Shown piece after piece: positions 2,134 to 21,658 of a stretch of 64,000 nt of DNA (the stretch's first letter is position 1; every line of letters starts with the position of its first letter). The stretch covers positions 1-64,000 of the forward strand of contig DUPV01000072.1 of NCBI GenBank assembly GCA_012838135.1, read 5' to 3'. Position numbers and translations under genes: made by a program. The DNA comes from Clostridiaceae bacterium. GTDB taxonomy: Bacteria; Bacillota; Clostridia; Saccharofermentanales; DTU023. Below the pieces are notes generated by a model. That model was not told the DNA's origin and did no database searches. It saw only the letters and a program-made list of their open reading frames with translations.

Positions 2134-3831
2134 ATGGAATATAGACGATTAGGTGAAATTTTAACAGATGCGGGCGTTATATCTGAGGAACAGCTCGCCA
2201 ATGCGCTTGCTCTCGGTAAGGAGCAGAATAAACGTCTTGGTGAGGTTTTGCTTGATAATAAGATTATTACCGAAAGACAGCTCATAGATGTGCTTCAATA
2301 TCAATTAGGTGTTGATTTTATTGATCTTTCCAAAGTTGAGATTCCTGTTCAGATGGCTCAGCTTCTCCCTAAGAACATTGCGAAGAAGCATGAGGTCGTT
2401 CCTGTGAGAGTGGCAGGAGACACTATTTATGTGGCAATGTTTGATCCTCTGAATTTCATGGCAATTGAAGAAGTCAAATCGGCGACGAAGAAGCGTGTCA
2501 TACCGATGATTGCCACGAAGAGTGCAACTGACAGGGCAATCCATGTGCTTTACGGCAGCGAGAACGTAAACCGGGCTATAGACGAGATGCAGAAGTCAAT
2601 GAATGACATTGTTCAGCCGATCAGCGATTTAGTTGAGTCAGGTGAAGTTGATGAACAAGCTGCACCGGGAATCAGACTTGTCAATTCGATCATAGAGCGT
2701 GGTGCGCAGGAGAATGCTTCCGATATTCACATGGAGCCGAGAGAAAACGGATTCATAATCAGAATGAGGATAGACGGTGTGCTTCACGAAATGCTTACCG
2801 TTCCTCAGAATCTGCAATCATCTGTAATATCCAGAATCAAGATCATGGGTGAAATGGATATCGCTGAAAGGAGAATACCTCAGGACGGTCGTTCTAATAT
2901 AAGAGTCAAAGGAAGAGATATCGATCTCAGAATTTCCACACTCCCTACCCAATACGGTGAAAAAGTGGTTATACGTTTCCTGGAAAAATCTGCGTCGCTT
3001 CTTACAAGCGACGGAATCGGACTTACCGGCAAACTGTTAGACAATTATAACGAGCTTATAGCTAATGCCAATGGCGTAATACTCATTGCCGGACCTACGG
3101 GTTCAGGAAAAACTACCACTATGTACACTATGGTGAATGATCTTAACCGTGAGGAAGTCAATCTGGTGACCCTTGAAGACCCTATAGAATATAACATCGA
3201 CGGTGTGAATCAGGTTCAGATAAACGAAAAAGTGGGAATGACCTTCGCCAACGGTCTGCGGGCGATACTCCGTCAAGACCCTGATATCATAGCCGTCGGC
3301 GAAATCCGTGACGGAGAAACAGCCGAAATAGCAATGCGTGCCGCCATAACGGGGCACCTGGTATTATCGACCATACATACGAATTCCGCCATTGCGACTC
3401 TGGACAGACTGCTCGATATAGGCGTAGAGCCTTACCTGATCGCGAGTGCTCTTAAAGGTGTCATAGCACAAAGGCTCGTGCGTAAGATTTGTCCCAATTG
3501 CAAAGAATCCTACACACCGGGCGAGGACGAACTCATTTCCTTGGGTCTTGATCCTGACAAGTCAAAGGATATCAAGTTTTACCGAGGAAAAGGCTGCCCT
3601 GACTGCCTGGGCAGAGGCTATCGCGGCAGAACCGCAGCATTCGAAATGTTGGTGCTTAATTCCGAAATTAAACAGAAGTTCAGAGAAAATGCGCCACATC
3701 ACGAGCTCGAGGAAGCAATTTATCGCTCCCCGAATTTTGAAACGATGAGTCAGAATTGTTTAAGACTTGTTTTAGAAGGCAAGACGACCGCAAGTGAGGC
3801 GAAAAGAATCCTCTACTCTACAGATTTATAA
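2134..3831 (+). CDS. pilB: Type IV pilus assembly ATPase PilB (GspE family)
   Basis: GPTGSGKTTTMYT Walker A, LEDPIEYNIDGVNQVQIN, CPNC..CPDC zinc motif, N-terminal GspE_N domain. Confidence 0.95.
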   Translation: MEYRRLGEILTDAGVISEEQLANALALGKEQNKRLGEVLLDNKIITERQLIDVLQYQLGVDFIDLSKVEIPVQMAQLLPKNIAKKHEVVPVRVAGDTIYVAMFDPLNFMAIEEVKSATKKRVIPMIATKSATDRAIHVLYGSENVNRAIDEMQKSMNDIVQPISDLVESGEVDEQAAPGIRLVNSIIERGAQENASDIHMEPRENGFIIRMRIDGVLHEMLTVPQNLQSSVISRIKIMGEMDIAERRIPQDGRSNIRVKGRDIDLRISTLPTQYGEKVVIRFLEKSASLLTSDGIGLTGKLLDNYNELIANANGVILIAGPTGSGKTTTMYTMVNDLNREEVNLVTLEDPIEYNIDGVNQVQINEKVGMTFANGLRAILRQDPDIIAVGEIRDGETAEIAMRAAITGHLVLSTIHTNSAIATLDRLLDIGVEPYLIASALKGVIAQRLVRKICPNCKESYTPGEDELISLGLDPDKSKDIKFYRGKGCPDCLGRGYRGRTAAFEMLVLNSEIKQKFRENAPHHELEEAIYRSPNFETMSQNCLRLVLEGKTTASEAKRILYSTDL

Positions 3832-3894
3832 AGAAATAACCGTTATATATTAGAGTTCACAAACTGCCGGACGCGGATGAGAACGAGGACAATA

Positions 3895-4989
3895 ATGAAT
3901 ATAATAAGCATAATCAAAGAAGCACAGCTAAGAAGAGCATCGGATATCCATGTCGTGTATGGGCTGCCTGTCAGAATCAGAATAGACGGAGTTCTTGAAA
4001 ACTATGATGACAATGTTCTGACACATGAGGACTGCAACAGTATTGCCAAGCAGCTTCTAGCTGAAAAATACAAGCTGCTTGAGTCAGTCGGAGAGGTCGA
4101 TGCGGCAGGTACTTTTGCGGATGATGTCCGTTGCAGACTGCATGTGTTCAGACAGCAGGGGCATATCAGCTCCGCGATCCGTATTTTGTCCGACAGAATA
4201 CCCGAACTCGAGATGCTTGGCTTGCCGCCTATTTGCTACGAATTTGCAGAATATCCGAGAGGAATAGTAATCGTAACAGGAGAAACAGGCTCAGGTAAAT
4301 CAACTACATTGGCCGCACTTCTTAACCGCATCAATCAAACCAGAGCACAGCACATTATCACGCTTGAGGATCCGATAGAATATATCTATCACCCGGACAA
4401 ATGTACGATCAACCAGAGGCAGATAGCGGAAGATACCGCAAGCTATGAAACCGGGCTAAAGGCGATACTGCGTGAAGACCCGGACATCATACTGATCGGT
4501 GAGATGCGAACTCTGGAAACTATTGAAACGGCTTTGACAGCCGCAGAAACAGGGCATTTGGTTTTTGCCACGCTTCACACCAACAGTGCGGCGGACTCCA
4601 TCGATCGTATCGTAGATGTTTTTCCGGGGGAAAGGCAGCAGCAAATCCGGCTTCAGCTCAGCATGACGTTAAGAGCAGTGCTTGCGCAGCAACTCCTGCC
4701 TCGCGCAAGCGGACAGGGCAGGGTACTTGCCTGTGAGGTAATGGTGCCTAATTCCGCAATCAGGGCAATGATCAGAGAGGGCAAGACGCCTCAGATTGCC
4801 AGCGCGATACAGACCTCCGCGGCGGAAGGCAATATCTCTATGGATAATTTCCTGGCCAAACTCGTTAAACAGGGTGCTATATCCAGGGAGGTGGCTGTAG
4901 AGGCGGCACACGATATAGATTTTCTGAAAAAACTTATAGGCATGTCGAGTATGTCAACTTCAATAAGCCGTGACAGGATAATAAGATAG
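3895..4989 (+). CDS. pilT: Twitching motility/retraction ATPase PilT
   Basis: GETGSGKSTTLAALL, ITLEDPIEYIYHP; ORF opens at 3877 but Met at 3895 gives the canonical MNIISIIKEAQLRRASDIH start. Confidence 0.92.
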   Translation: MNIISIIKEAQLRRASDIHVVYGLPVRIRIDGVLENYDDNVLTHEDCNSIAKQLLAEKYKLLESVGEVDAAGTFADDVRCRLHVFRQQGHISSAIRILSDRIPELEMLGLPPICYEFAEYPRGIVIVTGETGSGKSTTLAALLNRINQTRAQHIITLEDPIEYIYHPDKCTINQRQIAEDTASYETGLKAILREDPDIILIGEMRTLETIETALTAAETGHLVFATLHTNSAADSIDRIVDVFPGERQQQIRLQLSMTLRAVLAQQLLPRASGQGRVLACEVMVPNSAIRAMIREGKTPQIASAIQTSAAEGNISMDNFLAKLVKQGAISREVAVEAAHDIDFLKKLIGMSSMSTSISRDRIIR

Positions 4990-5068: not shown

Positions 5069-6274
5069 ATGATAACATACAAATACAAAGCCTTATCAAA
5101 AGACGGCATGGCGGTCGAAGGCGTGATCAAGGCTCATGACAGAAATGACGCCGTATTCAAGCTGAAAAATGAATACGGCATCATCGTAGATATCAAGGAA
5201 GTAACAAGCTTAGACCTTTTTACAAAAAAAGAAGGCACAGGCAAAGTAAAAGACAAGGATATAGCCCTGATGTGCCAGCAGTTTTCCATTCTTCTCACGG
5301 CAGGACTGCCGATAGCCAGAACAGTGGAGCTTGTAGGTGTGAGATCAGAGAGCAAGGTACTTAAGCAGATTCTCACATCCGTGGCTGAAGATGTAACCGC
5401 AGGATATAACTTAGCAGGCAGCTTCCAGACGAGAGCCAAAAACCTGCCTGTCAACTTTATTGAAACAATAAGGGCGGGCGAGGAATCAGGCTCCCTTGAG
5501 ATGGCTTTCGGCAGATTAGCCAGCTTCTTTGAAAAGAAAGCCAATATATCCGGTAAGGTCAAGTCGGCGCTGACTTATCCGATTATGGTAATAATAGTTG
5601 CAGTCATAGTAATTGCTGTTATAATGGGGTACGCCGTGCCGGTGTTTACAAATGTATTCGTAGGAATGGGTGTTGAGCTTCCGTTACCGACCAGGATCTT
5701 GATAGCCATGTCGGATTTCTTTAAGGTCGCAACTATACCTATAATATGCATTATTGCAGTGCTAATAATTATGTATCGACTTTTGAAGAAGAAAGAAAGC
5801 TGGGCGATCAGGTTTGATAAGATTAAATTGAAATTACCAGTTGTGGGTAAGATAAACATCATGAATGCGGCGAGCCAGTTCGCCAATACTTTCTCCACCA
5901 TGCTGGCTGCCGGCGTTCCCGCTGTCAGGGCTCTCGGAATCACTGCGCGCTCGCTGCCGAACGCCTATATGGCCGACGAAATCCTGAACACGGTCGGCAT
6001 GGTCGAGCAGGGTTATTCGATCGGAAATGCTCTCAGACAGGTCAACGAGCTGCCGGAGTTGCTAGTCGAGATGACGGCTGTCGGTGAAGACTCGGGCTCA
6101 ATGGAGCATACGCTGGAGGTGGTAGGGCATTATTACGATACTGAGGTCGAGTATGTGACAAGCAGGGCGGTCAAATTAATCGAACCGGTGATCATAGTCG
6201 TGCTGGCAGCATTCGTAGCATTCATACTGCTCTCAGTCTATCTGCCGATGTTTAGTATGTATGACAGTATTTGA
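5069..6274 (+). CDS. pilC: Type IV pilus inner membrane platform protein PilC (GspF family)
   Basis: Two T2SSF-like halves, e.g. FSILLTAGLPIARTVELVG and FANTFSTMLAAGVPAVRALGI. Confidence 0.94.
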   Translation: MITYKYKALSKDGMAVEGVIKAHDRNDAVFKLKNEYGIIVDIKEVTSLDLFTKKEGTGKVKDKDIALMCQQFSILLTAGLPIARTVELVGVRSESKVLKQILTSVAEDVTAGYNLAGSFQTRAKNLPVNFIETIRAGEESGSLEMAFGRLASFFEKKANISGKVKSALTYPIMVIIVAVIVIAVIMGYAVPVFTNVFVGMGVELPLPTRILIAMSDFFKVATIPIICIIAVLIIMYRLLKKKESWAIRFDKIKLKLPVVGKINIMNAASQFANTFSTMLAAGVPAVRALGITARSLPNAYMADEILNTVGMVEQGYSIGNALRQVNELPELLVEMTAVGEDSGSMEHTLEVVGHYYDTEVEYVTSRAVKLIEPVIIVVLAAFVAFILLSVYLPMFSMYDSI

Positions 6275-6444: not shown

Positions 6445-6840
6445 ATGAAAAAAATGAATAACAAAGGCTTTACCTTAATGGAGCTGCTCATCGTAGTAGC
6501 AATTATCGCTGTGTTAGTCGCGATTGCCATTCCTGTAATGAATTCTCAACTTGAAAAGGCAAGAGAAGCAACAGACGTTGCAAATATGAGATCCGCAAAA
6601 GCTGTAGCTGTAGTTGGATATTTAAGCGAGGGAACAACAGGAACAAAGTATTTTGATGTAGTAAGTGGTACATTAAAGGATACTAAAGCAGAAATCTCAA
6701 AAGGATACGGTAAGGGAACTAATATTGATGGCGGAATGACAGAAATGGGTTATGCTGCTGGAACAGCAACAAAAGATCAGATTATAGAAGTTATCATTGC
6801 TGATGATGGTGGAGTAACACTTAATTGGGTAGCTAAATAG
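6445..6840 (+). CDS. pilA: Major type IV pilin
   Basis: NKG|FTLMELLIVVAIIAVLVAIAIP class III signal, 131 aa. Confidence 0.92.
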   Translation: MKKMNNKGFTLMELLIVVAIIAVLVAIAIPVMNSQLEKAREATDVANMRSAKAVAVVGYLSEGTTGTKYFDVVSGTLKDTKAEISKGYGKGTNIDGGMTEMGYAAGTATKDQIIEVIIADDGGVTLNWVAK

Positions 6841-6892: not shown

Positions 6893-6922
6893 CCCCAAAG
6901 ATGCAGGGGTGCATCTTTGGGG
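6893..6922 (+). promoter_or_regulatory. Perfect 12-bp stem hairpin in pilA-pilD intergenic RNA
   Basis: CCCCAAAGATGC-AGGGGT-GCATCTTTGGGG; no downstream T-tract. Confidence 0.7.
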
Positions 6923-6942
6923 TTAGTGTACTTTTGAAAAGA

Positions 6943-7743
6943 ATGATGATAATGACCATCTATTCATCGACATTTTTTACGTTATATGGTTTTTTTGTAG
7001 CCTTCTTACTCGGAATTACACTGGGCAGCTTTCTTAACTGTGTGGTGATGCGGGTGCTTTCGGGAGAACCGATTGCAAGAGGCAGATCGCACTGTATGTC
7101 ATGCGGACACAAGCTGGGCGTGCTTGATTTAATCCCGCTGTTCAGCTGGCTTTTTCTCAGGGGTAAATGCAGATACTGCAGATCTAAGATAAGCACGCGG
7201 TATCCGCTCAGTGAGCTTGTGTTGGGTATCGTTTATATCATACTTTTAGCAAAGTATGATTTAACCTTGAGAACACTTGAACTTATCGTACTTTGCTCGC
7301 TTTTACTTTGCATCACACTCTGCGATTTAGATGAGCATATAATTCCCGACCGGTTTATCGTCATCGGAATTATTAACAGAATTATTTTTGTTCTGATATC
7401 GGGAAATATACTTGAAGAGTTAAAGCTTAGTATCATAGGAGCATTTTCTGTGTCGCTGCCACTCCTCATTTTATCGCTCATCCTTGATAAGATTCTAAAA
7501 AAAGACACGATGGGTGGCGGAGACATTAAATTATTTTTTATGGCGGGCATGTATTTCGCCTGGCCTGTGAATCTTCTCGTACTTTTCATGAGCACGATCA
7601 TAGGCATAATTTTTGGCATTTTGGCGAAGTCAAAGAAGAATCAAGAAAATCAGATACCTTTCGGACCGGCCATTTCTATTGGATATTTTCTGGGCATGCT
7701 TGCCGGAAGTGAATTAGTTAATTTATATTTAGGTCTTTTTTAG
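6943..7743 (+). CDS. pilD: Prepilin peptidase (A24)
   Basis: CMSCGHKL...CRYC zinc-binding pairs, CDLDEHIIPDR and GGGDIK catalytic Asp motifs; ORF-track start 6901 lies inside the hairpin, so a Met at 6943-6952 is more likely. Confidence 0.92.
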   Translation: MMIMTIYSSTFFTLYGFFVAFLLGITLGSFLNCVVMRVLSGEPIARGRSHCMSCGHKLGVLDLIPLFSWLFLRGKCRYCRSKISTRYPLSELVLGIVYIILLAKYDLTLRTLELIVLCSLLLCITLCDLDEHIIPDRFIVIGIINRIIFVLISGNILEELKLSIIGAFSVSLPLLILSLILDKILKKDTMGGGDIKLFFMAGMYFAWPVNLLVLFMSTIIGIIFGILAKSKKNQENQIPFGPAISIGYFLGMLAGSELVNLYLGLF

Positions 7744-7766: not shown

Positions 7767-8756
7767 GTGGCAAAAAACTATATCGGGATTGAGATAGGTA
7801 ACGGAATCACTACGATGTATCAGGGCGGAAAAAAGAGCAAAATCCTCGTTTCACGCCTGCCTGAGAATCTCGTGGATGGCGGTGAGATTGTTTCGCCGGA
7901 GTTCCTCTCACAGTTTTTGAAAAAAATGAAAAAAGAGGGAAGATTCAGCGGCAGAGCCTGTGCCTTGATTTTACCTGAGTTCAGTGCATATTTCAGGTCG
8001 CTCGAGATGCCTCCGATCAGTGAAAAACAGCTGAGACTCAACCTCCCGTACGAATTCAGAGACTTCGTCGGAAACGAGAGCATAAACTACAATTATGATT
8101 ATGCGGTCGAAGGCTATGTCACAGACGAGGACGGCAAGGTAACGGCCGTCCGTTTGCTCGCGGCAGCCGCCTCGAAGCAAACGATCAAGGAATATGAGAA
8201 CCTGCTTCACAGAGCAGGTTTCAAGCTAAAGTTGGCACTGCCGCGCGAGATGGCTCTGCTTAATCTCGTCAGAAAGGCGATTGAGAAGGGAGCTCCCGGT
8301 GACAGAACCTTCGTAATAATCGATGTCGGTTTTGCAAATACGCGGGTCTACATTTTTCAAGGCGAAGATCTGAAGGCTACCAAAACGATCGAAATGGGCT
8401 GCCGGGATGTGGACAGCGTCATAGCGGATTATTATAATATCGATGTTTATCTTGCTGCTTCATACAGGGAGACCGACCATGCAGGGATACTGGAAAGCGA
8501 TATATGCCGGGCAGTATACAACCGGATATCGCTGGAGGTAATGAAGGCTATAAACTTTTATAAATATGAAAATCGGCAGAGCGAATTCGAGGACTGCTTT
8601 ATCTGCGGTGACTGCTCGGATACCGAAGCTCTTGTCAATAATATGCTTGCATACGTCCGGCTGAACAGGGAGAGTCTGGATGTGATTTTACCTGAAGAAT
8701 GCAAAGGCCTGAGTGACGCTCCGCGCGCCCTTATGTCCATAGGCGTTACTTTGTAG
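7767..8756 (+). CDS. pilM: PilM-like actin-fold pilus assembly protein
   Basis: GIEIGNGITTMYQ, IDVGFANTRVYIF actin-like motifs; position in pil operon. Confidence 0.85.
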   Translation: MAKNYIGIEIGNGITTMYQGGKKSKILVSRLPENLVDGGEIVSPEFLSQFLKKMKKEGRFSGRACALILPEFSAYFRSLEMPPISEKQLRLNLPYEFRDFVGNESINYNYDYAVEGYVTDEDGKVTAVRLLAAAASKQTIKEYENLLHRAGFKLKLALPREMALLNLVRKAIEKGAPGDRTFVIIDVGFANTRVYIFQGEDLKATKTIEMGCRDVDSVIADYYNIDVYLAASYRETDHAGILESDICRAVYNRISLEVMKAINFYKYENRQSEFEDCFICGDCSDTEALVNNMLAYVRLNRESLDVILPEECKGLSDAPRALMSIGVTL

Positions 8757-8769
8757 GAGAAGGAACTTT

Positions 8770-9420
8770 ATGGGAAATAAAATTAATAAACATATAAGCT
8801 CAAAACTTCCTTCCAAAAAATCCATGAACCTCTATCAGATTGAGATTACCGATAATTCATGGCAGAGGGTAATACCTTATGCGATACTGATCATTGTTAT
8901 TGTAGCTGCTTTTATTAAATTAGGTGTGTTTCAAAGGATGTCACATCTTAATCAGTTGAGTAAACAGGTTTCTGAAGATCAGCTTATGCTTGATGAATTA
9001 AATAAGGCAATAGAGGGCTATGATGATCTGAAGACTGAATATATGAGATATACCGATAATTACATGCTGGAGGAAGAAGGAACACTCGTTGACAGGATGA
9101 GCATCATCGGTCTGATCGCTGATAATGTTTCCAACATAGGAGAAATTAAGAGCTATTCAATAGCTGACAACACGGTTTCTCTTGAAGTAATTGTCAATAC
9201 GCTCGATGATGTTCGCGTGATCGGAAAACAGCTGGAAACAGTCGATTGGGTCGGGAGCATAACCGTCAATACCGCTACGAAGAATACTTCCGTCACAGAA
9301 GGAGACAAAGTAGTCGCTTCGATCGAGTTTGAGGTTATCTATCAGGGCGAGTTTAAGGTGCCTGTTAGTGAAGTTTCAGGTACTATGGAAGCGGTAGACG
9401 GAGAGGAGGCTGATCACTGA
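8770..9420 (+). CDS. pilN: PilN-like pilus assembly protein
   Basis: Short cytoplasmic N-terminus + single TM + coiled coil; position after pilM. Confidence 0.75.
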   Translation: MGNKINKHISSKLPSKKSMNLYQIEITDNSWQRVIPYAILIIVIVAAFIKLGVFQRMSHLNQLSKQVSEDQLMLDELNKAIEGYDDLKTEYMRYTDNYMLEEEGTLVDRMSIIGLIADNVSNIGEIKSYSIADNTVSLEVIVNTLDDVRVIGKQLETVDWVGSITVNTATKNTSVTEGDKVVASIEFEVIYQGEFKVPVSEVSGTMEAVDGEEADH

Positions 9421-10040
9421 TGAATCTAAAGAAAGAAATTCTGTCACTTAAAGAGTTGACACTTCTGGGCATATTGATCATCCTCGCAACATATTATTTC
9501 GTAGTGCATGGACCGATTAAAAAACAGACGGAGGAGTACGATAACCGGCTTGCCGAGATCAACTCGGAAATACAGATTTCACAAATAAAGGCTGCCGAGA
9601 TGATTAAGATGCAGAGGTCAATCGATGCCATATTTGACGAATATGACGGTAATCCACCTATGACTCCTGAATACAACAATACTAATGTTATTATCGGCGA
9701 ATTAAACGGTATTTTAGGTAGTACTTATGATTACCATTTATCCTTTGGCGCTGAGGTAGTTGATGAGAATAATGTCAATATTATCAGAAGACCGATAGAT
9801 ATTTCTTTTTCAACACAAACATATGATGATGCTGTAGCAAAAATTAAGACGATTAATGAGTCGGAAAATAAATATTTGATTCAAAATATTTCTATTTACG
9901 ATTCAGATGTCACCAGTTCCGGCTTAACCGACCAGTTTGGTGATCCTGTTAACCGCACTCAAGACAGCGGTAGATACGATATAGTGATAACCATGACAAG
10001 TTTCGAATATAAGGCGGACACACATAATCCTAGCCATTGA
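9420..10040 (+). CDS. pilO: PilO-like pilus assembly protein
   Basis: Single TM then coiled coil; 1-nt overlap with pilN. Confidence 0.72.
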   Translation: MNLKKEILSLKELTLLGILIILATYYFVVHGPIKKQTEEYDNRLAEINSEIQISQIKAAEMIKMQRSIDAIFDEYDGNPPMTPEYNNTNVIIGELNGILGSTYDYHLSFGAEVVDENNVNIIRRPIDISFSTQTYDDAVAKIKTINESENKYLIQNISIYDSDVTSSGLTDQFGDPVNRTQDSGRYDIVITMTSFEYKADTHNPSH

Positions 10041-10584
10041 GATTCTCAACCACAAATTTCTCTTCGGAAATAATTACTTGGCTTAAACCATCTTGCGCCA
10101 CAACTTGAATGCCTACCTCGAACGTTGGCTTCGGTTGAGTTGAATCCCTTTTGAACTCAGTGAACTTTGCCTTCAAATCGTAAACGTAGGTTTTTTTCGG
10201 AACTAAGTCGTATTCTAAGTCATCCACCCCTTTTGACGTACTCAGCATAATGAATCCACTTTCAGCTGACTGACCGTCCTTATCCATTACTGAGAAACTG
10301 CAATTTTTAAGAGAAAGATTCGTGCTAAAAAATTTCAAGGTACTAAGATCGGTTCCTGTAATATTTTTAGCATAGCGCAGTTCATCCTTAACTGAAGTAG
10401 CGAGGGTAGCGCACAAAATCTGCCCCTCCGCTTCCCTGTTCGATTTTTTAAATGAACGCACCCCAAGATCTATCGCTAAGGTTATGATTCCGGTTACTAA
10501 TACCAGGAGAACCAGCGTAACCAAGAGTTCGATCAGGGTCACACCTTTTTTATTATTTAATTTTTTAACGACATTATTCCTCAT
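10030..10584 (-). CDS. Minor pilin/pseudopilin (PilW/GspJ-like position)
   Basis: KKG|VTLIELLVTLVLLVLVTG; likely start MRNNVVKKLNN at 10584 after GAGGA. Confidence 0.8.
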   Translation of the reverse strand: MRNNVVKKLNNKKGVTLIELLVTLVLLVLVTGIITLAIDLGVRSFKKSNREAEGQILCATLATSVKDELRYAKNITGTDLSTLKFFSTNLSLKNCSFSVMDKDGQSAESGFIMLSTSKGVDDLEYDLVPKKTYVYDLKAKFTEFKRDSTQPKPTFEVGIQVVAQDGLSQVIISEEKFVVENLNG

Positions 10585-10879
10585 AATATTCGTAAAAACA
10601 GAACTCCTTATCCTCAGATTCATAGGCATTTACAGGAATAGGAATACTTGTAGGAACAGTGAAAGTATAGCTGACTGTAATCCCTGCGCCGGTTATAGTC
10701 TCTCCTGTCCTGTCCATCATCGTTGAAATATCTTTATCCTCAGCCTGTTTATTAAACTTAGCCGCAAGGACAATAGCGGAAGTAAGTATCATCATAACCA
10801 GAACTATGATTACCAGACCAGCCAAAACTTCTATAAGGGTTTCTCCGCGTTTGTTTTTAAGTTTATTTTTTGTTTTCAT
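10574..10879 (-). CDS. Minor pilin (PilV/GspI-like), 101 aa
   Basis: KRG|ETLIEVLAGLVIIVLVMM class III signal. Confidence 0.8.
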   Translation of the reverse strand: MKTKNKLKNKRGETLIEVLAGLVIIVLVMMILTSAIVLAAKFNKQAEDKDISTMMDRTGETITGAGITVSYTFTVPTSIPIPVNAYESEDKEFCFYEYYEE

Positions 10880-10893
10880 ATTACCCCTGCTAC

Positions 10894-11616
10894 TTACTTC
10901 TTTTTACTTATAACGCAGTTTTCCCAGCTGATTGTATGAACAACCTTTTTTGTAACGGTTATAGTCTTAACATAGTTGTCATTTTTCTGTTCTTTTGAAA
11001 ATGTGACCGGATCTGAGGTGGATTTTGCTAAATCCAGCGTCATAACCGTAATAAATTTATCAGCTTCTGATGATGAAGCGTTTTTGATGCCGAAAGCAAT
11101 AGTCATTTTCATATTTGCGGGATCAAAATCCAGCTTAGCTACCACCGGTGCAAGCTTCTGTAGCTTGTCATTACCTTCTATCGTGATAGTCAGAGTTTGC
11201 GGACTAGGTGAATCAATTAATTTCGCCCATTCTTTTAGAACTTCTTGCAGTATAGTATTATCCTGTGCGACATCATGATAAACAGCTGCACCTGATGTAG
11301 GTTCCTCAGGGACAGTGTTACTGCTAATTAGCGTTTCCCAGTTCCCATCATATGTTTCCGTAGTAGTTGCTACAGACTTTTCCTCATAAGAAACACTGTC
11401 ACCCTCAAGTGAATCTTTGAACAGCTTAACAGCAGAGCTTACCGAAAGGTAGTTTTGTTCTTCACTCTGCGTGTTTTTTACACGACCTACATTGGAAAAC
11501 GCAGTAGAAACTATGACCGCTGAAATCATAACACAAACGATCAGGGCAATCAAAGCGAATATAAGGGTCGCTCCCTTATTTGACCGTATTTTGTTTTTCA
11601 GATTACTTGAATTCAT
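10894..11616 (-). CDS. Minor pilin lacking Glu5 (PilX/GspK-like)
   Basis: NKG|ATLIFALIALIVCVMISAVIV; Met at 11616 preceded by AGGAGAG. Confidence 0.75.
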   Translation of the reverse strand: MNSSNLKNKIRSNKGATLIFALIALIVCVMISAVIVSTAFSNVGRVKNTQSEEQNYLSVSSAVKLFKDSLEGDSVSYEEKSVATTTETYDGNWETLISSNTVPEEPTSGAAVYHDVAQDNTILQEVLKEWAKLIDSPSPQTLTITIEGNDKLQKLAPVVAKLDFDPANMKMTIAFGIKNASSSEADKFITVMTLDLAKSTSDPVTFSKEQKNDNYVKTITVTKKVVHTISWENCVISKKK

Positions 11617-14600
11617 GTAATCTCTCCTGAGGGACAGTATCACACTCAAATAGCCATATTCCACCGTCTTGATTTTGACCTGTACCTGAACCTAAAATTT
11701 GTTCGAACTTAAATCCGGTTTGTGTACCGTTAAGCACGATTCTTTTTTGACCTGAGAAATACAGATTGTGTTTCGCGCTGTCGTATTCAGTTTTTTCAAC
11801 CGATTTCCATTCAATACCAAAAGTAGCATTGGTATTTGTATTGTGAAGATATGGGTTCAATAAATTGTTGAAAATCTTTAAATGTCTCTTATTGCCGGTA
11901 ACTTCCCATAGCATTGTGTTATTGCTTACAGGTGAGGTGAGATAGTAGTCTCCTGTCTGCAAATCCTGCTGAAGATCTACCTTTATCGCAGCAATCGCAC
12001 TGTTAGACCAAGCGTTTACTATTCCGTTCATACAATAGTATTCTGAGTCAGTTCCACTTTCACGCGGTTCCTTGGCAATAATAAGGTACTTTTTCGTATC
12101 GGGATCGGGAAGTTGGCCAGAGGCTGTGACAAGTTTCAAAGGATTGTATGATATCTTCCACATCGCATGTAATACTATGTCTCCTGTCGGATTATCCTCT
12201 GTCGGATTGACATTAAACTTGCCATCCTGTGTTATATTCTCTACATCACTGACAATATTCCCTTCAGTATCCAATAGTTTTTGATGATTACCACTTTCAT
12301 TTTTTATATACCAGCCTTCAAAGACCGGTATTGGGTCTAACGTTGCAACTTTATCATTCATCTCACCATTCAAAGCAGAGAATGATTTTGGTTGATCTGT
12401 GTCTGTCGACAAGAGCTCCGGATTTATACCGCTGCCACCGTTATTATAGATATAACTGCTAAATACGTATGTTCCCGTTTCGTTATAATGTTTCAAAATA
12501 AGCTTTCCGGTGTAACAGATTGCGTGCAAATCATCGCTGACTATATTACTGTCAAAAGTCCTTATATTGCCGTCGCTGTCCTTATTATTCTCATCGCTAA
12601 CTTTTATTCTCAGTGCCTGCACTTTAAAATCAGCTTCTCCTGCATTTTGCGCTGTGGCTTCCAGATAAAACGGCGAAGAAGGATCAGGATCAGGTTCAGG
12701 TGTGGCTTTTGTAATTGACAGATTGAAGACGTCAGCCTCCGGAGTGGATGGATCGGCCGGATTATTGGATGTGGATGAGTAGTCCCAATTTTCACCGGTT
12801 GTTGTAATTTCGTCCGAATCTATCAAGTTATTATTTTTATCTGTTAATATGAGATTCCACTTTACTATTTCTCCGGGTTTTACCGTCGTAGGTGTAATCG
12901 GATTTGCTGAAAGATTCACTTCAGCGGTGACATCAACATTTAGTTGTGCTTCACTGTAATATCCGTCTTCGACTGAATATCTCAGAAGGATTTCAGTCAA
13001 TTCTGTCTTATCGATACCCGTTACAGTAAGTTTACAAGTACCATCTATTTCGCTCACGCTTGCGGATACACTTACTTTGTCGTCGATAATTACTGGCTGA
13101 TTAGCGTCAAAATTAACCCATGTATCATTTGCAGCATCTATTCTGATTTCAAGATTTGACAGTACAATATCGGGGTAACTTCCGCAGTCATAAAATTTCA
13201 CTTCCGTTTCATCGTAATAATCGTCAATATATTCGCCTGTAACTGTATCCTCATGGTAAGAAATTAAATCCAATGCCATATCGGCTTTAGTCAACTCTAA
13301 GCGTCTTACTATAGGCCATTGACCGTAATGAACATATTCTCCCGAATATTCTTGCTTAATTACCGCCGGGAACGGATAGTTCTTACCTTCAAGTGAAGCA
13401 TCCCCGCAGGGGAAACTGCTGTTAACAAGTGTAATTTTTTGATAAGGGGCCGGTGAAGAACTACCATTCAAGTCGGTGCAGAATTGCTCCAGGAACATAT
13501 CATCATATGATTTTGAATAAATGCCGTTATTTATCCAGCCAGGTTCATCCGATATTATCATCTGATCGGTTTTATAATTGTTAGCATAATAATGACAGTT
13601 ATTTAACTCACCACCAAGTGCCGGTTTACCAACGTACTCATTATAGTATGCATCACCGCCTATTACAGCAACCTTGACATTGCCTACAGGCTGCGGTAAA
13701 TCCATATAAGAATAGCAGTTATAATAATTCGGACTTATAAATCCCCACGAATTATCCCATATATCATGCATATTTACAGCTCTGCATGTAAAGGCTGATG
13801 AAGCGATGCCGCTGATATAAATATTCAGTTTATATACACCATTAGCAGCATCGGGATCGGTATAGATAAGAGAAGGGTCAACAAGAACTCTGCCGCCGGA
13901 GTAACAATTATAGATCCTGGTTTGATTTGTACCTGCAATACCTCCTACGGTTATGTTATCCTCATACTCAATGCCTACGAGACTGACAACACCTGTACCC
14001 CTGTGCCTATCTGTGTGGATTTTAATTGTAGTTACAGCAGAGCACTTGTTTATTTGCGTTCTGAGAACACCTGCCAGACCACCTATGGTTGTTTCTCCGC
14101 AGGATACCGGTTGATCACTTTCATCAATCACCTCATAGCCGGCAACCGCACAGTTTTCAATTATACCTATGTAGTCATAAGGGCTTACTCCTCCGTTATA
14201 CGTTCCGGTACTATATTCGTTTGCCATCCCCACTAAGGTGCCGATTGCGTAATAGCCCTGAGGGCTGCCAGCAGGACGCTTAATCACAGGAACAGTATCT
14301 TTTGAGTCCCTGATGAGCACGACATTTCTTATCGTAGCACTTACGGTTAATCCGAAAACTCCTACTGAATAGCAACCTGATGTAATAGAAAGGTTTTTTA
14401 TCTTATAACTTTGGCCGTCAAAGCTGCCCCCGAACCAGGCAAAAAACGGAATTCTATAGGTAACGTCAATCGTTCCTGAGGTTTCACCAAGAGCGGCAAT
14501 CGGTGTATAGCCTGTTCTTCCAATGCACTCTATATCATAATCCTGAATGAAGTTTTGTCTTGCTCTCAGTGTAGTAAAATTTGACAGGCCATCAAGTGGT

Positions 14601-17600
14601 AGCAGCGGTGAATAAAACCAGTAGTTGTTAAGATTCCGAATGATACTGGATGGAAGTGTTGCTGACATTAAGTAAGGGAAATATTTGCAGTAATATAGTC
14701 CGAACGTTGAAGTTCTGCCATTATTTGTCATTCTATTGTTAGTTCTCGATAAACTGTTCCAGTTGATAAACTGAAGTTGGTCGAGCGACCTGATCTTGTA
14801 TTTGTTATCCGCCATTCCCGGCTCGTGTTGAAGCGAGGGTTGGGTATCGTTATTCCAGCCTTCAAGCTTGATTGATTTGGCGAAGAAAGGACAGAAAGAA
14901 TAGCTGAGTGCCGGTTCATCCTCCGGTGTTAAAGTTACAGTAGCATTCTGTACATTCCCCGTCATAAACATATAGTTGTTTACATCGGCATTATATGAGG
15001 TAGCAGGGTTCGTTTCAGTACAAGTGCTATAGCATGTGAAAACATAACCGCTGTAGGCAGTATTAAACGATGATTCCGCATTCGTGTTTCGGTTAGCAGG
15101 GACATTCACATTCGACCATACTTTTCCTAAGTTATATGTTTGTGTACCGTCGCCTTTTTTCGCAACATAATAGCCATAGCCGTATTCTTTGACGATTCCT
15201 CCGTCGTCATGTACCGTGTTTATGGTGTCATGGAACACTGCCTCGTAGGCTACATTTTCGGTTTCGACTTTTTTTCTGCCTACCATGTAAATCTGATATC
15301 CCGGAGTAGAGCCTCCTGTAACCTTCTCCCAGTAGAAGAAACCGGCTTTACCGAAGTCAGGTTCTTCCGGCTCCGGCGGTATCTTCCAATCACCATAATG
15401 CGGGAGACCGGTTATTGATAAATAAGGATAGGTGACAAGGGGCTGAGGATCAAGGTCTGTTTTTTGATTATATGGATAGGTGTCGTTTTCGTTGTTATCA
15501 TCCGAAAATTTGCCTCCGTCAAATCCGGAAACCGCTTCGGCATTAGATGCGAAATTATATTCGGAAGAACCAACTAAATTTTTAGCAACGGATTTGAAGT
15601 AGTAGACATTGTTTACCGTTGTTGCGGACGGTGCCGTACTGTAGATATCAGTTGCCTTTAATTCGGAACAGTTAAATATCGAATAGGAATTGGTGACACT
15701 GGCAATTTTGTTTGGAACAAAACCCGCTGCTGCAGCAATTTTACCTTCGGCTATGCCGCTTTTTATCATGCCGAAACCTGCGGAGTATGAGCCTGAAATA
15801 GAGGATCCTTCAGCAAGTTCACCTGCCAGTCCGCCAATCTTGGAAGTCGATGCACCTCCGATCAGATATGAGTCAGCATATGAGTCCTGTATAGAAGCAT
15901 TACCGCTTGTTTTGCCAATCAATCCGCCAATCGAGCCCGTTCCCTCAATTATTGTTGAAGCAAAGCTGTGTTCGATTGTTAGATTGGCGGCAGTTGAACT
16001 GCCTACGAGTCCGCCGATATTAGAAGTGCCTTTCAATAAAATATTGTCTTTATAGGTGCGGGGAACAAAGTAATTTTTCTCAACATAAAGTTTGCAGTCT
16101 TTTATTGTAAGATCAGAGGTGGCCTTTCCCACCAGACCGCCTACGTCCGTACCGCCGTCTATCTTTGTGTTAACCATAGTAACATCGGATATCGTAAGGT
16201 TAGAGCCGGCTGTTCCCACTCCCACCAGACCGCCCACGTCCGTGCTGCCGTTTATCTTGGTGTTATCCATGGTAACGCCGGATATCGTAAGGTCAGAGGT
16301 GGCATTTCCCACCAGACCGCCTACGTCCGTACCGCTGTCTATCTTGGTGTTATCCATGGTAACGCCGGATATCGTAAGGTCAGAGGTGGCATTTCCCACC
16401 AGACCGCCTACGTCCGTACCGCTGTCTATCTTGGTGTTATCCATGGTAACGTTGGATATCGTAAGGTCAGAGGTGGAGGTAGCTGTTCCCGCCAGACCGC
16501 CGACATTTGTACCACCTTCTATCTTTTCGTTAATCAACGTAATGCCGGAAATCTCACTTCCTGCAAAAGTCTCGAATAGTCCCGCCGGTTTGTCGGTTCT
16601 GTTGCCAATATGCATATTCAATATTTTAAATGAACCAGTTTCCGGCGCGGGAATATAGCCTGAATATACGTTTAAGTTTGAGTTATCAATCGGTGTAAAT
16701 GTCTTGTTTCCGTAAAGTGACTTCCAAAGGAACTGTTCTTCAACAGGCCGAGTATTGTCGGAGTCATCACTAAAATCTATATCCGAAATCTGTTTTGCGG
16801 ACGTAACTGCAGTTGCCGGCAAGCCCGAAGTCGAGTTATCTAAATTCTGGAGATGTCTGCCATACGCTATATTGGCTTCAGCTTCTGTCGTCAATGATGC
16901 GAATAAACTGTTTACAGTCCTTCTTATTGGACTTGTATCCGGAATACTGTCATCGTTGCTTGAGACAGTGAAGGAAAGCTCTAAGTCCTCACCCGGAATG
17001 AGAGCTCCCGTGCTGCGCTCTACGCCAGATGGTTGCCAATCTGCATCACCGAAAGTATCTTTGAAGTTTTGATCGACTTCCAGCTTATCTAGTGTAACTG
17101 ACGCAGAGTACTTCTTCGTTAATCCTACAATATCTGAGTTGACTATAGGCGTGAGAATTACTGTTTTCTCGCTTGTTTTTCCCTTAACTGTAAGCTCAAA
17201 TTCAAGAGTGCTTGTATCACCTGCAACATAAGGAACAATTGCTGTCATATTCGCTTGCAAAATGTCGGCATTGATGATATTCAGTGACGCGTTGATTTTG
17301 CCACCGTTTGCATCCTCAGGCATATTCGCTTTGCCGCCATAGTAGCCTGCTTTATTATAACCTTTTAAGCTGTGCCTGAAATCCTTGAACCTGATCGAAG
17401 AATCGTCAATTACATTTTGGTCGAGTGTGTCATCGTTACTGACGTAAAAATCATCAGCTGATCTTTCTTCCGAGTAGAATGCCGAATAGACATATCCGGT
17501 AACAGGGTCAAGTTCAATGACCCAGTTATCATCAAGTACATCCTCGTCGATGCTCCCTTTAGGGAAAAACAAATCGATAAGATCACTTGAAGTGGACAAT

Positions 17601-17971
17601 GTTGGATTGTTTTTATCATGCCAAAAATATTTTAAGTTTTGATACTGTACCGTATCATTAGTATCTAATTCCCAATCGACAGGTTTTCCATCGCTATCTC
17701 CGACGACATCTACAAGTTCTGTGTTCGTTAATAATTTGTCTATTTCGCCCGATGCTTTTAACTCCCTGATTCTGTTCTGGGCGCTTACGTACATGCTCTG
17801 AGCTATGTTGTCCAGTTTAGTTTGCTTATTACGGTCAACCAGGTTTTGAACGCCAATGAATGCAATAGCGCCAAGAATAACTACTATTGCGACAGCAATG
17901 AGTGTCTCCATCAGTGTTAAACCTTTTTTATTTAATTGGTTGTTAAATCTTGTCTTCACGGTTACCTTCAC
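11603..17971 (-). CDS. Giant minor pilin-adhesin fusion, 2122 aa, with GLUG-like and InlB-B-like repeats
   Basis: N-terminal KKG|LTLMETLIAVAIVVILGAIAF class III signal; repeated GTDVGGLVGNATSDLTISGVTMDNTKI; C-terminal YNNGGSGINPE...FEGWYIKNESG...HAMWK module. Confidence 0.93.
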   Translation of the reverse strand: MKVTVKTRFNNQLNKKGLTLMETLIAVAIVVILGAIAFIGVQNLVDRNKQTKLDNIAQSMYVSAQNRIRELKASGEIDKLLTNTELVDVVGDSDGKPVDWELDTNDTVQYQNLKYFWHDKNNPTLSTSSDLIDLFFPKGSIDEDVLDDNWVIELDPVTGYVYSAFYSEERSADDFYVSNDDTLDQNVIDDSSIRFKDFRHSLKGYNKAGYYGGKANMPEDANGGKINASLNIINADILQANMTAIVPYVAGDTSTLEFELTVKGKTSEKTVILTPIVNSDIVGLTKKYSASVTLDKLEVDQNFKDTFGDADWQPSGVERSTGALIPGEDLELSFTVSSNDDSIPDTSPIRRTVNSLFASLTTEAEANIAYGRHLQNLDNSTSGLPATAVTSAKQISDIDFSDDSDNTRPVEEQFLWKSLYGNKTFTPIDNSNLNVYSGYIPAPETGSFKILNMHIGNRTDKPAGLFETFAGSEISGITLINEKIEGGTNVGGLAGTATSTSDLTISNVTMDNTKIDSGTDVGGLVGNATSDLTISGVTMDNTKIDSGTDVGGLVGNATSDLTISGVTMDNTKINGSTDVGGLVGVGTAGSNLTISDVTMVNTKIDGGTDVGGLVGKATSDLTIKDCKLYVEKNYFVPRTYKDNILLKGTSNIGGLVGSSTAANLTIEHSFASTIIEGTGSIGGLIGKTSGNASIQDSYADSYLIGGASTSKIGGLAGELAEGSSISGSYSAGFGMIKSGIAEGKIAAAAGFVPNKIASVTNSYSIFNCSELKATDIYSTAPSATTVNNVYYFKSVAKNLVGSSEYNFASNAEAVSGFDGGKFSDDNNENDTYPYNQKTDLDPQPLVTYPYLSITGLPHYGDWKIPPEPEEPDFGKAGFFYWEKVTGGSTPGYQIYMVGRKKVETENVAYEAVFHDTINTVHDDGGIVKEYGYGYYVAKKGDGTQTYNLGKVWSNVNVPANRNTNAESSFNTAYSGYVFTCYSTCTETNPATSYNADVNNYMFMTGNVQNATVTLTPEDEPALSYSFCPFFAKSIKLEGWNNDTQPSLQHEPGMADNKYKIRSLDQLQFINWNSLSRTNNRMTNNGRTSTFGLYYCKYFPYLMSATLPSSIIRNLNNYWFYSPLLPLDGLSNFTTLRARQNFIQDYDIECIGRTGYTPIAALGETSGTIDVTYRIPFFAWFGGSFDGQSYKIKNLSITSGCYSVGVFGLTVSATIRNVVLIRDSKDTVPVIKRPAGSPQGYYAIGTLVGMANEYSTGTYNGGVSPYDYIGIIENCAVAGYEVIDESDQPVSCGETTIGGLAGVLRTQINKCSAVTTIKIHTDRHRGTGVVSLVGIEYEDNITVGGIAGTNQTRIYNCYSGGRVLVDPSLIYTDPDAANGVYKLNIYISGIASSAFTCRAVNMHDIWDNSWGFISPNYYNCYSYMDLPQPVGNVKVAVIGGDAYYNEYVGKPALGGELNNCHYYANNYKTDQMIISDEPGWINNGIYSKSYDDMFLEQFCTDLNGSSSPAPYQKITLVNSSFPCGDASLEGKNYPFPAVIKQEYSGEYVHYGQWPIVRRLELTKADMALDLISYHEDTVTGEYIDDYYDETEVKFYDCGSYPDIVLSNLEIRIDAANDTWVNFDANQPVIIDDKVSVSASVSEIDGTCKLTVTGIDKTELTEILLRYSVEDGYYSEAQLNVDVTAEVNLSANPITPTTVKPGEIVKWNLILTDKNNNLIDSDEITTTGENWDYSSTSNNPADPSTPEADVFNLSITKATPEPDPDPSSPFYLEATAQNAGEADFKVQALRIKVSDENNKDSDGNIRTFDSNIVSDDLHAICYTGKLILKHYNETGTYVFSSYIYNNGGSGINPELLSTDTDQPKSFSALNGEMNDKVATLDPIPVFEGWYIKNESGNHQKLLDTEGNIVSDVENITQDGKFNVNPTEDNPTGDIVLHAMWKISYNPLKLVTASGQLPDPDTKKYLIIAKEPRESGTDSEYYCMNGIVNAWSNSAIAAIKVDLQQDLQTGDYYLTSPVSNNTMLWEVTGNKRHLKIFNNLLNPYLHNTNTNATFGIEWKSVEKTEYDSAKHNLYFSGQKRIVLNGTQTGFKFEQILGSGTGQNQDGGIWLFECDTVPQERLHEFK
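16092..16490 (-). repeat. 87-bp (29-aa) near-identical tandem repeats within giant pilin gene
   Basis: Copies starting near 16277 and 16364 are essentially identical at 87-bp spacing; flanking copies diverge. Confidence 0.9.
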
Positions 17972-18174: not shown

Positions 18175-18897
18175 TTAAAGAAATCGGTTCAACAAAGCAA
18201 GTGTGACAACTGAAGCAGGTAAACCTAATCCAAAAACAATATCTGACATACGTACTTTCATCTCCAGATAGGAAGTACGTTGATTAGAAAACCCTCTGGC
18301 TTCCATCGCCATCGCCAGAAATTCTGACCAGCGAACAGTACGAATCAGCATACAAAATATGGGACCTGATAAGAATGCTCTTCCTCGCACACCCCGTACA
18401 CGATAAGCCAATTTAGATCGTCTATATTCTTCTCTTACCGTAGGAAGCAGATGCACAGCAGCAAGAATTCCATATGCCATCTCAGGTTTCATGCGTGCTT
18501 GTTGAATAGCTGAAGCAATTAATTCATTGTTTTTTGTTGTAAGCCCGAAGACAAGCCCTAACATCGCATAAGCAAGAATTCTCGTACTTAACATCAGACC
18601 ATTAACAAAGGAAGGCGGCAATACACTCGCTTCTGAGATAGTCAGATTAGTCTGTGCACTAATCTCTTCACCACTATAAAACTTCATACCTGCAAAGAAA
18701 AAACTAAGAGCTACTAATAGAGCAGGCATTAGGAACTTAATAGCTGTAATAAAATTCGTACGTTGACTACCTAGAAGACAAAACAGAGCAATTCCTGCAA
18801 TAAATATATTGACATGATAACCCGGCACTACTGCTAATAACAGTGCAGTACTAAGGATACCTGACATTTTATAAAATGGATTCACATAATCAATCAT
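18175..18897 (-). CDS. ykoC: ECF transporter transmembrane T component (YkoC-like)
   Basis: CbiQ family features, RSKLAYRVRGVRGRAF and AMEARGF motifs. Confidence 0.85.
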   Translation of the reverse strand: MIDYVNPFYKMSGILSTALLLAVVPGYHVNIFIAGIALFCLLGSQRTNFITAIKFLMPALLVALSFFFAGMKFYSGEEISAQTNLTISEASVLPPSFVNGLMLSTRILAYAMLGLVFGLTTKNNELIASAIQQARMKPEMAYGILAAVHLLPTVREEYRRSKLAYRVRGVRGRAFLSGPIFCMLIRTVRWSEFLAMAMEARGFSNQRTSYLEMKVRMSDIVFGLGLPASVVTLALLNRFL

Positions 18898-20372
18898 CGG
18901 ATCCGCCTCATTTCACCCTTGTCTATTTCTATTTCACAATCCGCATAACGACTAATTAATGTCCGATCATGACTGGTAAAAATACAGCTGATACCATGCC
19001 GGATTAAATCTTGCAGTGTTTCCATAATTTCCACACCATGTCTGATATCTTGCCCGTAGGTAGGCTCATCCACGAGAAGTAATTTACGTGATCCCGGAAG
19101 CATTGTTAAAACCGCTAACCTGCGCTGCTCTCCCTGGCTAAGTAACCAGGGGGACACTTTCGTTTTACTCTGTAAACCATAACGTTCCAAGAATGAATGA
19201 ACTCTTGCACTATCGGCAACCTCTTCTAAAGCAGCATCAGGCTTTTCCCGGAGTTTAACACTAAACGCTATTTCCGATGCCACATCCATCTGAACAAACT
19301 GCAAAGCCGGATCCTGGAAGACTATGCCAATACGTTGAAAAACATCTCTTCGTTTCAGTGTACTAAGATCATCACCTGCGAAAAAAATCGTACCGGAGTA
19401 GGCGCATTCTCCTAACAAAGCACGAAAAAAACTCGTTTTGCCGCTGCCACTCGATCCGGTTAGTGCAACCAATTTATTGCCCGGAATATCCAGAACATCA
19501 GAATGTACTATTCTTTCTCCTCCTCGCCATTTGCGACGTAAGATTCCGGGTCTTGAAGCTCCAACCAATAAGGAAAAATCACGCAGTTGTAAAATCGGCT
19601 CTTCCTTACTCTCTGAAGCTTTCGTATTCTGTCCTTCATTTACCGGACGCGGTTTCCAATCAACATGCAAACCGTGCGCAAATAGATTATCCTCATTGAC
19701 TTGCACTAACTGTCCTTTTCTATCGAGTAATAATTGCCCGGTACATTCTTTCCAATGTTCAAGCCGGTGGTCAATAACCAACACAGCTTTGCCCTTAGCA
19801 CGCCAGTTTTCTATCAAACCCCGGCATTGATGAACCGTCTCATCATCAAGATTTGCAAACGGCTCATCCAAAATATAAAGATTTCCGGGATAGAGTTCAG
19901 CAATAGCAAGGGCACAAAGTTCAAGCTCACCACCCGACAAATAATCAAACTCGCGGTCAGCTATGGATGACAAATTGAATTTTTCGATTACTCTTTCTAA
20001 CTCAAGATCAATATCACAAGGTGGTGTTTCCAAGTTTTCAAAACAAAATATAATTTCTTGCCTGAGGTTAGACATACAGAACGAACCTCGTGCATTCTGA
20101 AATATCGTCGTCATATATTGACTACGTTCTGTTGTATTTAGGTCAGTAATATCTTGACCGGAAACCAGAATCCGCCCGCTATTTAACACACCGCCATTCG
20201 CAGGATAATGCCCGCAAAGTACTTTTGCTAAAGTACTCTTGCCGGCTCCGCTCTCTCCGCAAAGCAAGACTAATTCGCCCGGCCATATCTGAAGTGAAAT
20301 ATCGTTCAAGATATTATTTTTACCAAAACCGAAAGACAGATTCAGAATTTCAAGTACAGGCTCTTTTATCAT
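18894..20372 (-). CDS. ykoD: ECF transporter fused dual ATPase (YkoD-like)
   Basis: Two ABC cassettes: GESGAGKST...LSGGELE and GSSGSGKTS...LSQGEQRR. Confidence 0.92.
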   Translation of the reverse strand: MIKEPVLEILNLSFGFGKNNILNDISLQIWPGELVLLCGESGAGKSTLAKVLCGHYPANGGVLNSGRILVSGQDITDLNTTERSQYMTTIFQNARGSFCMSNLRQEIIFCFENLETPPCDIDLELERVIEKFNLSSIADREFDYLSGGELELCALAIAELYPGNLYILDEPFANLDDETVHQCRGLIENWRAKGKAVLVIDHRLEHWKECTGQLLLDRKGQLVQVNEDNLFAHGLHVDWKPRPVNEGQNTKASESKEEPILQLRDFSLLVGASRPGILRRKWRGGERIVHSDVLDIPGNKLVALTGSSGSGKTSFFRALLGECAYSGTIFFAGDDLSTLKRRDVFQRIGIVFQDPALQFVQMDVASEIAFSVKLREKPDAALEEVADSARVHSFLERYGLQSKTKVSPWLLSQGEQRRLAVLTMLPGSRKLLLVDEPTYGQDIRHGVEIMETLQDLIRHGISCIFTSHDRTLISRYADCEIEIDKGEMRRIR

Positions 20373-20971
20373 GTTTTATCCTGCCCTATCGGATAGGAAT
20401 TAAGCAATCCTGTTTTTGCAAGTTGATCACAAAGTACTTTTGTCAAAAAGCCGGTAAAGAATATTGAACTTAGCAAACGAATTACAAAAATCAATAACAC
20501 AATCTGTAATTGCATCGTATGATAGCCGGAACGGAATCCGGTCCAGACAAAACTAAATACAGTGGCAAAAACGGCACCTAACAGACATGACAGATAATCA
20601 TAACGTTTATAACGGAAGATCATAAAACCTAACTCAACAGCTAAACCCTGAATGAAGGCACTTAATATAACGACAGGACCAAATGTGTTGCCTAAAATCA
20701 CTTCGATAACAGAAGCAATTATTTCTGCAACGATACCAACACCGGGACGTCTTAAGATATAGACTGCGGCGAGTGCCGCCATAAACCAAATCCCATAAAA
20801 AGGTTCATAGCCAAGAATTCCGTAACCGCTTGGTGTCAACACCGCGGTTGTAGCAGAACCTGCATAAACAGCCAGCAGGTAAATCAAACCGAAAACCAAG
20901 GATAATAAGCCCATAAAAATATAATCCTTCAAGGCTAAAGCTTTCCGTTGCCTACTCAATTTCTTGCTCAT
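20369..20971 (-). CDS. ykoE: HMP/thiamine ECF substrate-binding component (YkoE-like)
   Basis: Integral membrane S-component in ykoFEDC order. Confidence 0.82.
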   Translation of the reverse strand: MSKKLSRQRKALALKDYIFMGLLSLVFGLIYLLAVYAGSATTAVLTPSGYGILGYEPFYGIWFMAALAAVYILRRPGVGIVAEIIASVIEVILGNTFGPVVILSAFIQGLAVELGFMIFRYKRYDYLSCLLGAVFATVFSFVWTGFRSGYHTMQLQIVLLIFVIRLLSSIFFTGFLTKVLCDQLAKTGLLNSYPIGQDKT

Positions 20972-21601
20972 TTAGATATCCTCCTCAGGTAAATTACAAA
21001 GTATTGTTGCTTCAATAATATAGTGACTAATCTCTTCACCAACCCGGTTCGCAACCCATTCCAAGTAGTCCAGAACAGCATGTGAATCTCCCTTCAGGAA
21101 GGAAGTATAGTGCCCTGTACCATGGAAAATACCACGGTCTACTGCTTCATTGACCACTTTCTCGATAACATGCATATAGTTGGTTTCGCCCATAGGATAT
21201 AACGCAAATTTACAAAGGACGGGGAAATGGATCGCTTCTATAGCTGCTGCATTCACTTTTTCATCGGAAAATTCCAGTGCATAATCCGCATCAACATCAC
21301 CCGGGCAGCCTTTGGAAATCGTCATCTCAAACATCATATGGACATCTTTACGATAGGCATGGTGAAAACATGCTTTACTTGCATCGAACACCGCCGATTC
21401 TCGCCCTCTGTAAACAGTTGAAGTGGCGTCAGTTTTTGCCCAGACTTTTGATAAATCAACCTTGCTGATAGCGTCCAGAATAATAGTAATGAAGTCATCA
21501 CACATAGGTGCTAAACTGAAACGTATTCCGACAACACCTTTTTTCGATCCGGGGACACCCGCTTGACACGACTGATAGTTGACATACGGTTTTTCTGCCA
21601 T
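20972..21601 (-). CDS. ykoF: Thiamine/HMP-binding protein YkoF
   Basis: YkoF-family motifs (GVRFSLAPM-like, VYRGRESAVFD...MTISKGCPGD); ATG at 21601 with SD AGGAGGAG at 21609-21616. Confidence 0.85.
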   Translation of the reverse strand: MAEKPYVNYQSCQAGVPGSKKGVVGIRFSLAPMCDDFITIILDAISKVDLSKVWAKTDATSTVYRGRESAVFDASKACFHHAYRKDVHMMFEMTISKGCPGDVDADYALEFSDEKVNAAAIEAIHFPVLCKFALYPMGETNYMHVIEKVVNEAVDRGIFHGTGHYTSFLKGDSHAVLDYLEWVANRVGEEISHYIIEATILCNLPEEDI

Positions 21602-21658
21602 AAAAAAACTCCTCCTATTCAATTGAATCCCAGAAGGAGCACATTATTTATATGCTAC

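Follow-up and report, generated by a model that had tools for sequence, protein, structure and literature searches.

The type IV pilus locus and its minor-pilin operon

The window (the whole stretch of DNA that was analysed, 64,000 nucleotides) carries a complete type IVa pilus (T4aP) locus with pilT and, convergent to it on the opposite strand, a minor-pilin operon headed by a giant pilin gene. The genes, with a slash at the leader junction, are:

2134..3831, forward strand: PilB/GspE-type assembly ATPase
3877..4989, forward strand: PilT retraction ATPase (TIGR01420, 426 bits, cut-off 319)
5069..6274, forward strand: PilC/GspF platform protein
6445..6840, forward strand: probable major pilin, 131 aa (N_methyl, 34.8 bits)
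6901..7743, forward strand: PilD prepilin peptidase, with both A24 domains
7767..8756, forward strand: PilM (PilM_2, 47 bits, above cut-off)
8770..9420, forward strand: PilN, by position and orthologues, without a family match
9420..10040, forward strand: PilO, by position, with a weak T2SSM match below cut-off
10030..10584, reverse strand: J-like minor pilin (KG/VTLIE), N_methyl above cut-off, by position and orthologues; the listed ORF runs to 10629
10574..10879, reverse strand: I-like minor pilin (RG/ETLIE), N_methyl above cut-off, ComGE model below cut-off
10894..11619, reverse strand: K-like minor pilin without Glu5 (KG/ATLIF), GspK model 24.7 bits, below cut-off
11603..17959, reverse strand: giant modular minor pilin, 2118 aa (GAAGG-GTG, orthologue starts)

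PilB and PilC also score on the GspE and GspF models. A secretin search of the window's genome found none while six controls gave a signal, so that the host is likely to be a monoderm. A search of the same genome for PilY1 was silent, as were its controls.

The minor-pilin operon proposed by the sequence-only reading is borne out: three pilin-like genes, overlapping or adjoining, lie downstream of the giant on the same strand. Their K-, I- and J-like labels come from gene order, Glu5 and weak model matches and are not curated assignments. Four co-encoded minor pilins, with a K that lacks Glu5, are present as in an HIJK set; the GspK, ComGE and PilV models match below their cut-offs and fall short of the curated H/I/J/K definition, and the set is therefore called only 'HIJK-like'. 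In the four family copies checked (4/4), the final codons of the giant contain both the Shine–Dalgarno sequence and the ATG of the K gene (CAGGAGAGATTACATGAATTCAAGTAA in the window), which suggests that the two genes are probably coupled in translation. This overlap with the ribosome site and start codon of the K gene also explains why the end of the giant (QERLHEFK) is so strongly conserved; a function of its own for the conserved LHEFK end was considered and rejected, since the gene overlap accounts for it. What had been read as a distinct tail is thus, at its very end, a feature of the neighbouring gene.

Two more N_methyl pilin genes (frames of 160 and 328 aa) are found on other contigs of the window's genome (G000:C24:16906 and G000:C40:1445) and are perhaps parts of other type IV filaments. 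Upstream of the giant in the window (18175–21622) is an ECF-type (YkoFEDC-like) uptake operon encoding CbiQ, a double ABC ATPase, an ABC_cobalt permease and YkoF; none was seen beside the giant in those loci of relatives that were read.

The giant pilin gene

The frame 11603–17971 (reverse strand) has 2122 codons and zero stops, and orthologue alignment shows the protein to be kept at 61–72% identity in other species; on both grounds it is taken as a real gene, as originally claimed, with its start moved. GTG 17959 is preceded by GAAGG and equals the start of the orthologues (VKTR...), and in three relatives an in-frame TAG stands just upstream of the equivalent position, so that a start at 17959 (2118 aa) is more likely than one at 17971 (2122 aa). 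The N-terminus, VKTRFNNQLNKKG/LTLMETLIAVAIVVILGAIAF, contains a class III prepilin leader (NKKG/LTLMETLIAVAIVVILGAIAF) with Glu5, in agreement with the first reading. Pfam N_methyl (IPR012902) gives 18.7 bits in a protein search, slightly below the cut-off of 21.2, and 26.5 bits, above cut-off, in a genome scan; TIGR02532 gives 16.5 against a cut-off of 16.3. Like modular pilins, the giant has a class III signal/N_methyl domain, a domain beyond the pilin part (Glug) and co-encoded T4P machinery. Its parts (all on the reverse strand) are:

17858..17959: class III leader (VKTRFNNQLNKKG) and hydrophobic N-terminal helix with Glu5
17180..17920: carrier (pilin) module, residues 14–260, homologous across genomes of the order (alignment, hhalign, genome search, AF2)
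15350..16867: GLUG-motif region 1, approx. residues 365–870 (alignment, motif count, limits by eye)
16103..16476: near-identical 87-bp tandem GLUG units (TRF), copy number differing between species
13190..14767: GLUG-motif region 2, approx. residues 1065–1590 (Pfam Glug at 1335–1358, genome match 13886–13957, limits by eye)
12530..13189: segment missing from the G020 orthologue (alignment), probably Ig-like domains
11606..12529: C-terminal 308 aa, predicted all-beta, without known relative

The ectodomain comes to roughly 1,850 residues, and the whole subunit is over ten times as large as a usual one. In the AF2 model (mean pLDDT 65.6) the carrier module consists of a 55-residue helix (16–70) and several strands; at this confidence a Foldseek search of solved structures (PDB) returned no significant match. 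The GLUG-like repeats noticed from the sequence are real: Pfam Glug scores 34.7 bits (cut-off 20.5) and is above cut-off in the genome scan too, and TRF finds a tandem array at 16103–16476 of 4.2 × 87 bp (87%). The number of copies is 4.2 in the window, 10.3 in G005 (L055:15068–15990) and approximately 1 in G020, G011 and G022. The near-identical units (87–93 bp in the window and G005) point to a recent repeat expansion in the window and its congener that would lengthen the arm. A weak M26_N-like match is below cut-off and falls within the GLUG repeats, for which reasons identity as an M26 peptidase was rejected. Domain-model searches found no catalytic family in the giant, and no vWA, lectin or PilY1 beta-propeller domain was matched in it.

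An InlB-B-like module had been proposed for the C-terminus, and with it an N_methyl + GLUG + Flg_new architecture. The first two components are present; for the third there is no Flg_new (PF09479) match up to E = 1. A profile built from true InlB-B repeats of related giants scores the window's giant no better than shuffled copies, and by these tests the InlB-B module was rejected here. The C-terminal 308 aa are predicted to be all-beta (pLDDT 59.8), and at this confidence the model has no significant match in the PDB; weak structure matches to a ryanodine-receptor domain (E 0.15) were not used, and a PDB sequence search with a profile of this part gave nothing.

Orthologues and spread of the carrier

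Of 38 genomes in the window's family, five carry the giant, and PilM is found in these five alone. Two other complete orthologues have 2345 and 1761 aa, and two more are broken by contig ends; the orthologue in G020 lacks the segment preceding the C-terminal part. Identity to the window is 84–96% for PilB, PilT, PilC, PilD and PilM, 72–77% for the carrier module and 46–51% for the C-terminal part; such fast C-terminal divergence, set against motor proteins mostly at 84–96%, is as expected of an exposed part. In two of the five orthologues (L057:4324, L016:1791) Gln5 replaces Glu5, a change that would be tolerated best at the tip position. Those relatives that were traced are metagenome-assembled genomes; their isolate names (AS21ysBPME, for example) are of a type used in a biogas-digester study (PMC7038595).

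An N_methyl search of the order revealed many pilin frames of 1.5–3.8 thousand aa in the sister family, and the first 250 residues of these giants align with those of the window's giant beyond the helix; hhalign of the carrier without its helix is weaker, at 54% probability. Of 190 genomes of the order, 43 by hand count contain a match that spans most of the carrier profile: five belong to the window's family and all the others to a single genus of the sister family, perhaps Saccharofermentans. A sample of 392 genomes from across the class added one such match, a protein of 3284 aa in G475, and a partial match in a 2034-aa pilin of G283; a sample of 399 genomes from across the phylum yielded the window's own match and no other. 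With orthologues in the family and giants in the sister family, the giant is not a unique protein. Wherever the genes are adjacent their order is giant-K-I-J, in the sister family and also in G475 and G283, which belong to two other families of the class; the search for the same operon in relatives that the sequence-only reading had suggested thus found it kept across families. Complete sister-family giants have 9–29 GLUG-like motifs, the giants of G475 and G283 25 and 20. True Flg_new/InlB-B repeats, strong and C-terminal, are present in the three sister-family giants that were scanned.

In the T4P locus of another member of the Clostridia, G214 (L118:10517–16641), a 670-aa pilin follows K-I-J, and after it comes a separate protein of 1360 aa, possibly a split form of the giant-arm idea.

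A reciprocal pattern of carrier and J giants

In approximately 27 sets with a giant carrier, J has 199–281 aa. In nine sets, from a subgroup of the sister-family genus, the carrier has approximately 500 aa and J is the giant, with 945–1,637 aa (G037, 1637; G079, 1542; G142, 1479; G114, at least 1466; G075, 1407; G144, 1388; G129, 1253; G151, 1123; G086, 945); these labels and ORF limits were assigned with a script and patterns rather than curated models. The three J giants that were scanned contain BspA-type leucine-rich repeats (DUF285; LRR_5 in one) and no GLUG. These J-slot pilins with BspA-type repeats (DUF285/LRR; 1123–1637 aa) are at:

L115:944–5857
L117:1406–4777
L119:1828–5589

Among the sets in which both genes could be measured, none with two giants or with no giant was found. 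On the PilC tree the J-giant genomes are one clade (support 96), so that the pattern reflects one evolutionary switch, and nine independent switches are ruled out. Tentatively, and with somewhat less than even confidence, we suggest that each minor-pilin set in these Clostridia offers a single 'giant arm' position, which exactly one of its subunits occupies, and that in one lineage the arm may have moved from the carrier (GLUG) to J (BspA leucine-rich repeat), leaving a carrier of approximately 500 aa; the arm would then be a covalent, swappable replacement of PilY1. The 'exactly one giant' rule derives from the breadth of the carrier-giant state and this one natural shift.

Discussion

In its Gram-positive type IVa pilus the protein is probably a giant modular minor pilin that joins the tip complex, carries a beta-rich binding arm and, by PilT retraction, pulls the cell; by analogy with PilB and PilC of Streptococcus sanguinis, it is best read as an adhesin that is displayed at the tip and covalently fused to a pilin. 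PilD would cut the leader, and the giant would form, with the K-, I- and J-like pilins, the complex that initiates the pilus. Its place would be at or next to the pilus tip, since an ectodomain of this size would hardly fit in the shaft. The ectodomain would form a long arm, with a GLUG stack of variable length followed by further beta domains, whose end may bind a surface, a polymer or a partner cell; in a digester, the target could plausibly be a particle or a neighbouring cell. Retraction by PilT after binding would then pull the cell toward the target, and a single polypeptide would fill the role for which diderms use a separate protein, PilY1.

The GLUG and other beta-rich parts of the ectodomain resemble those of ordinary surface proteins, and the pilin helix might be a mere membrane anchor for a surface protein that is not built into pili. 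This is unlikely: the giant strictly co-occurs with the pilus locus and overlaps the K pilin gene, and both the carrier module and the operon order are conserved over several families. It is likewise rather improbable that the arm is a non-adhesin effector, an enzyme or a nutrient-binding arm (for plant polymers in digesters, for example) on a T2SS-like pseudopilus. The digester habitat, the scores of PilB and PilC on GspE/GspF models and the M26_N-like match would suit such a role, but that match is sub-threshold and lies in the GLUG repeats, a catalytic family was not found and PilT is present. A misassembly joining a pilin to an unrelated surface-protein gene might be feared where the family copies that were traced come from metagenome-assembled genomes and two are split at contig ends; three complete copies of 1761–2345 aa, from different species and of the same architecture, refute it, and we give it practically no weight.

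The proposal of an undescribed system, made when the locus was first read, does not stand, as modular pilins with tip adhesins are a described and widespread kind (PMC8179133, PMC9934059). Raynaud et al. (2021) report 264 architectures of N_methyl with extra domains, including M26-family modules; their most extreme modular pilin by domain number has 860 aa (PMC8179133). What is new here is the size class, the conserved carrier and the reciprocal carrier/J pattern; no relevant paper turned up in a literature search for giant pilins, for pilins with GLUG or for T4P of Saccharofermentans. The range of modular pilins is extended from approximately 50 kDa to some 230–400 kDa, as estimated from length, and giants prove to be a conserved, recurring design rather than a freak. 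With their varying numbers of GLUG repeats, the species supply a natural series of lengths for a pilus-borne arm. What most deserves further work is the common carrier, together with the move of the giant arm from one subunit to another, a move that makes testable the idea that a monoderm tip complex holds one large effector that more than one subunit can present.

The closest counterparts are PilB (vWA) and PilC (lectin) of S. sanguinis, which like the giant have a class III leader, an N-terminal pilin part and large non-pilin modules behind it, and belong to a minor-pilin set without PilY1 in a monoderm host, with a tip position proposed (PMC8179133, PMC9934059). They are of approximately 50 kDa with one or two modules (PMC8179133, PMC9934059), whereas the giant has some 1,850 residues in addition, includes a stretch of tandem repeats, matches neither vWA nor lectin models and belongs to a giant-K-I-J operon. 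The HIJK complex of T4aP/T2SS shares with the window's set the four co-encoded minor pilins and a K without Glu5; unlike that complex, the window's set does not match the curated models to cut-off, and its fourth subunit (H by elimination only) is the giant. PilC/PilY1 of diderm T4aP is also a large modular tip effector, a functional analogy only; unlike the giant, PilY1 is no pilin, and its beta-propeller (IPR008707/PF05567) was not found in the giant. In the KilLMN Tip complexes and TadG of Tad pili, as in the window's set, one subunit carries a large variable domain (PMC12075869); these are of Tad type (T4cP) and described in diderms (PMC12075869), and are set apart here by description, not by sequence.
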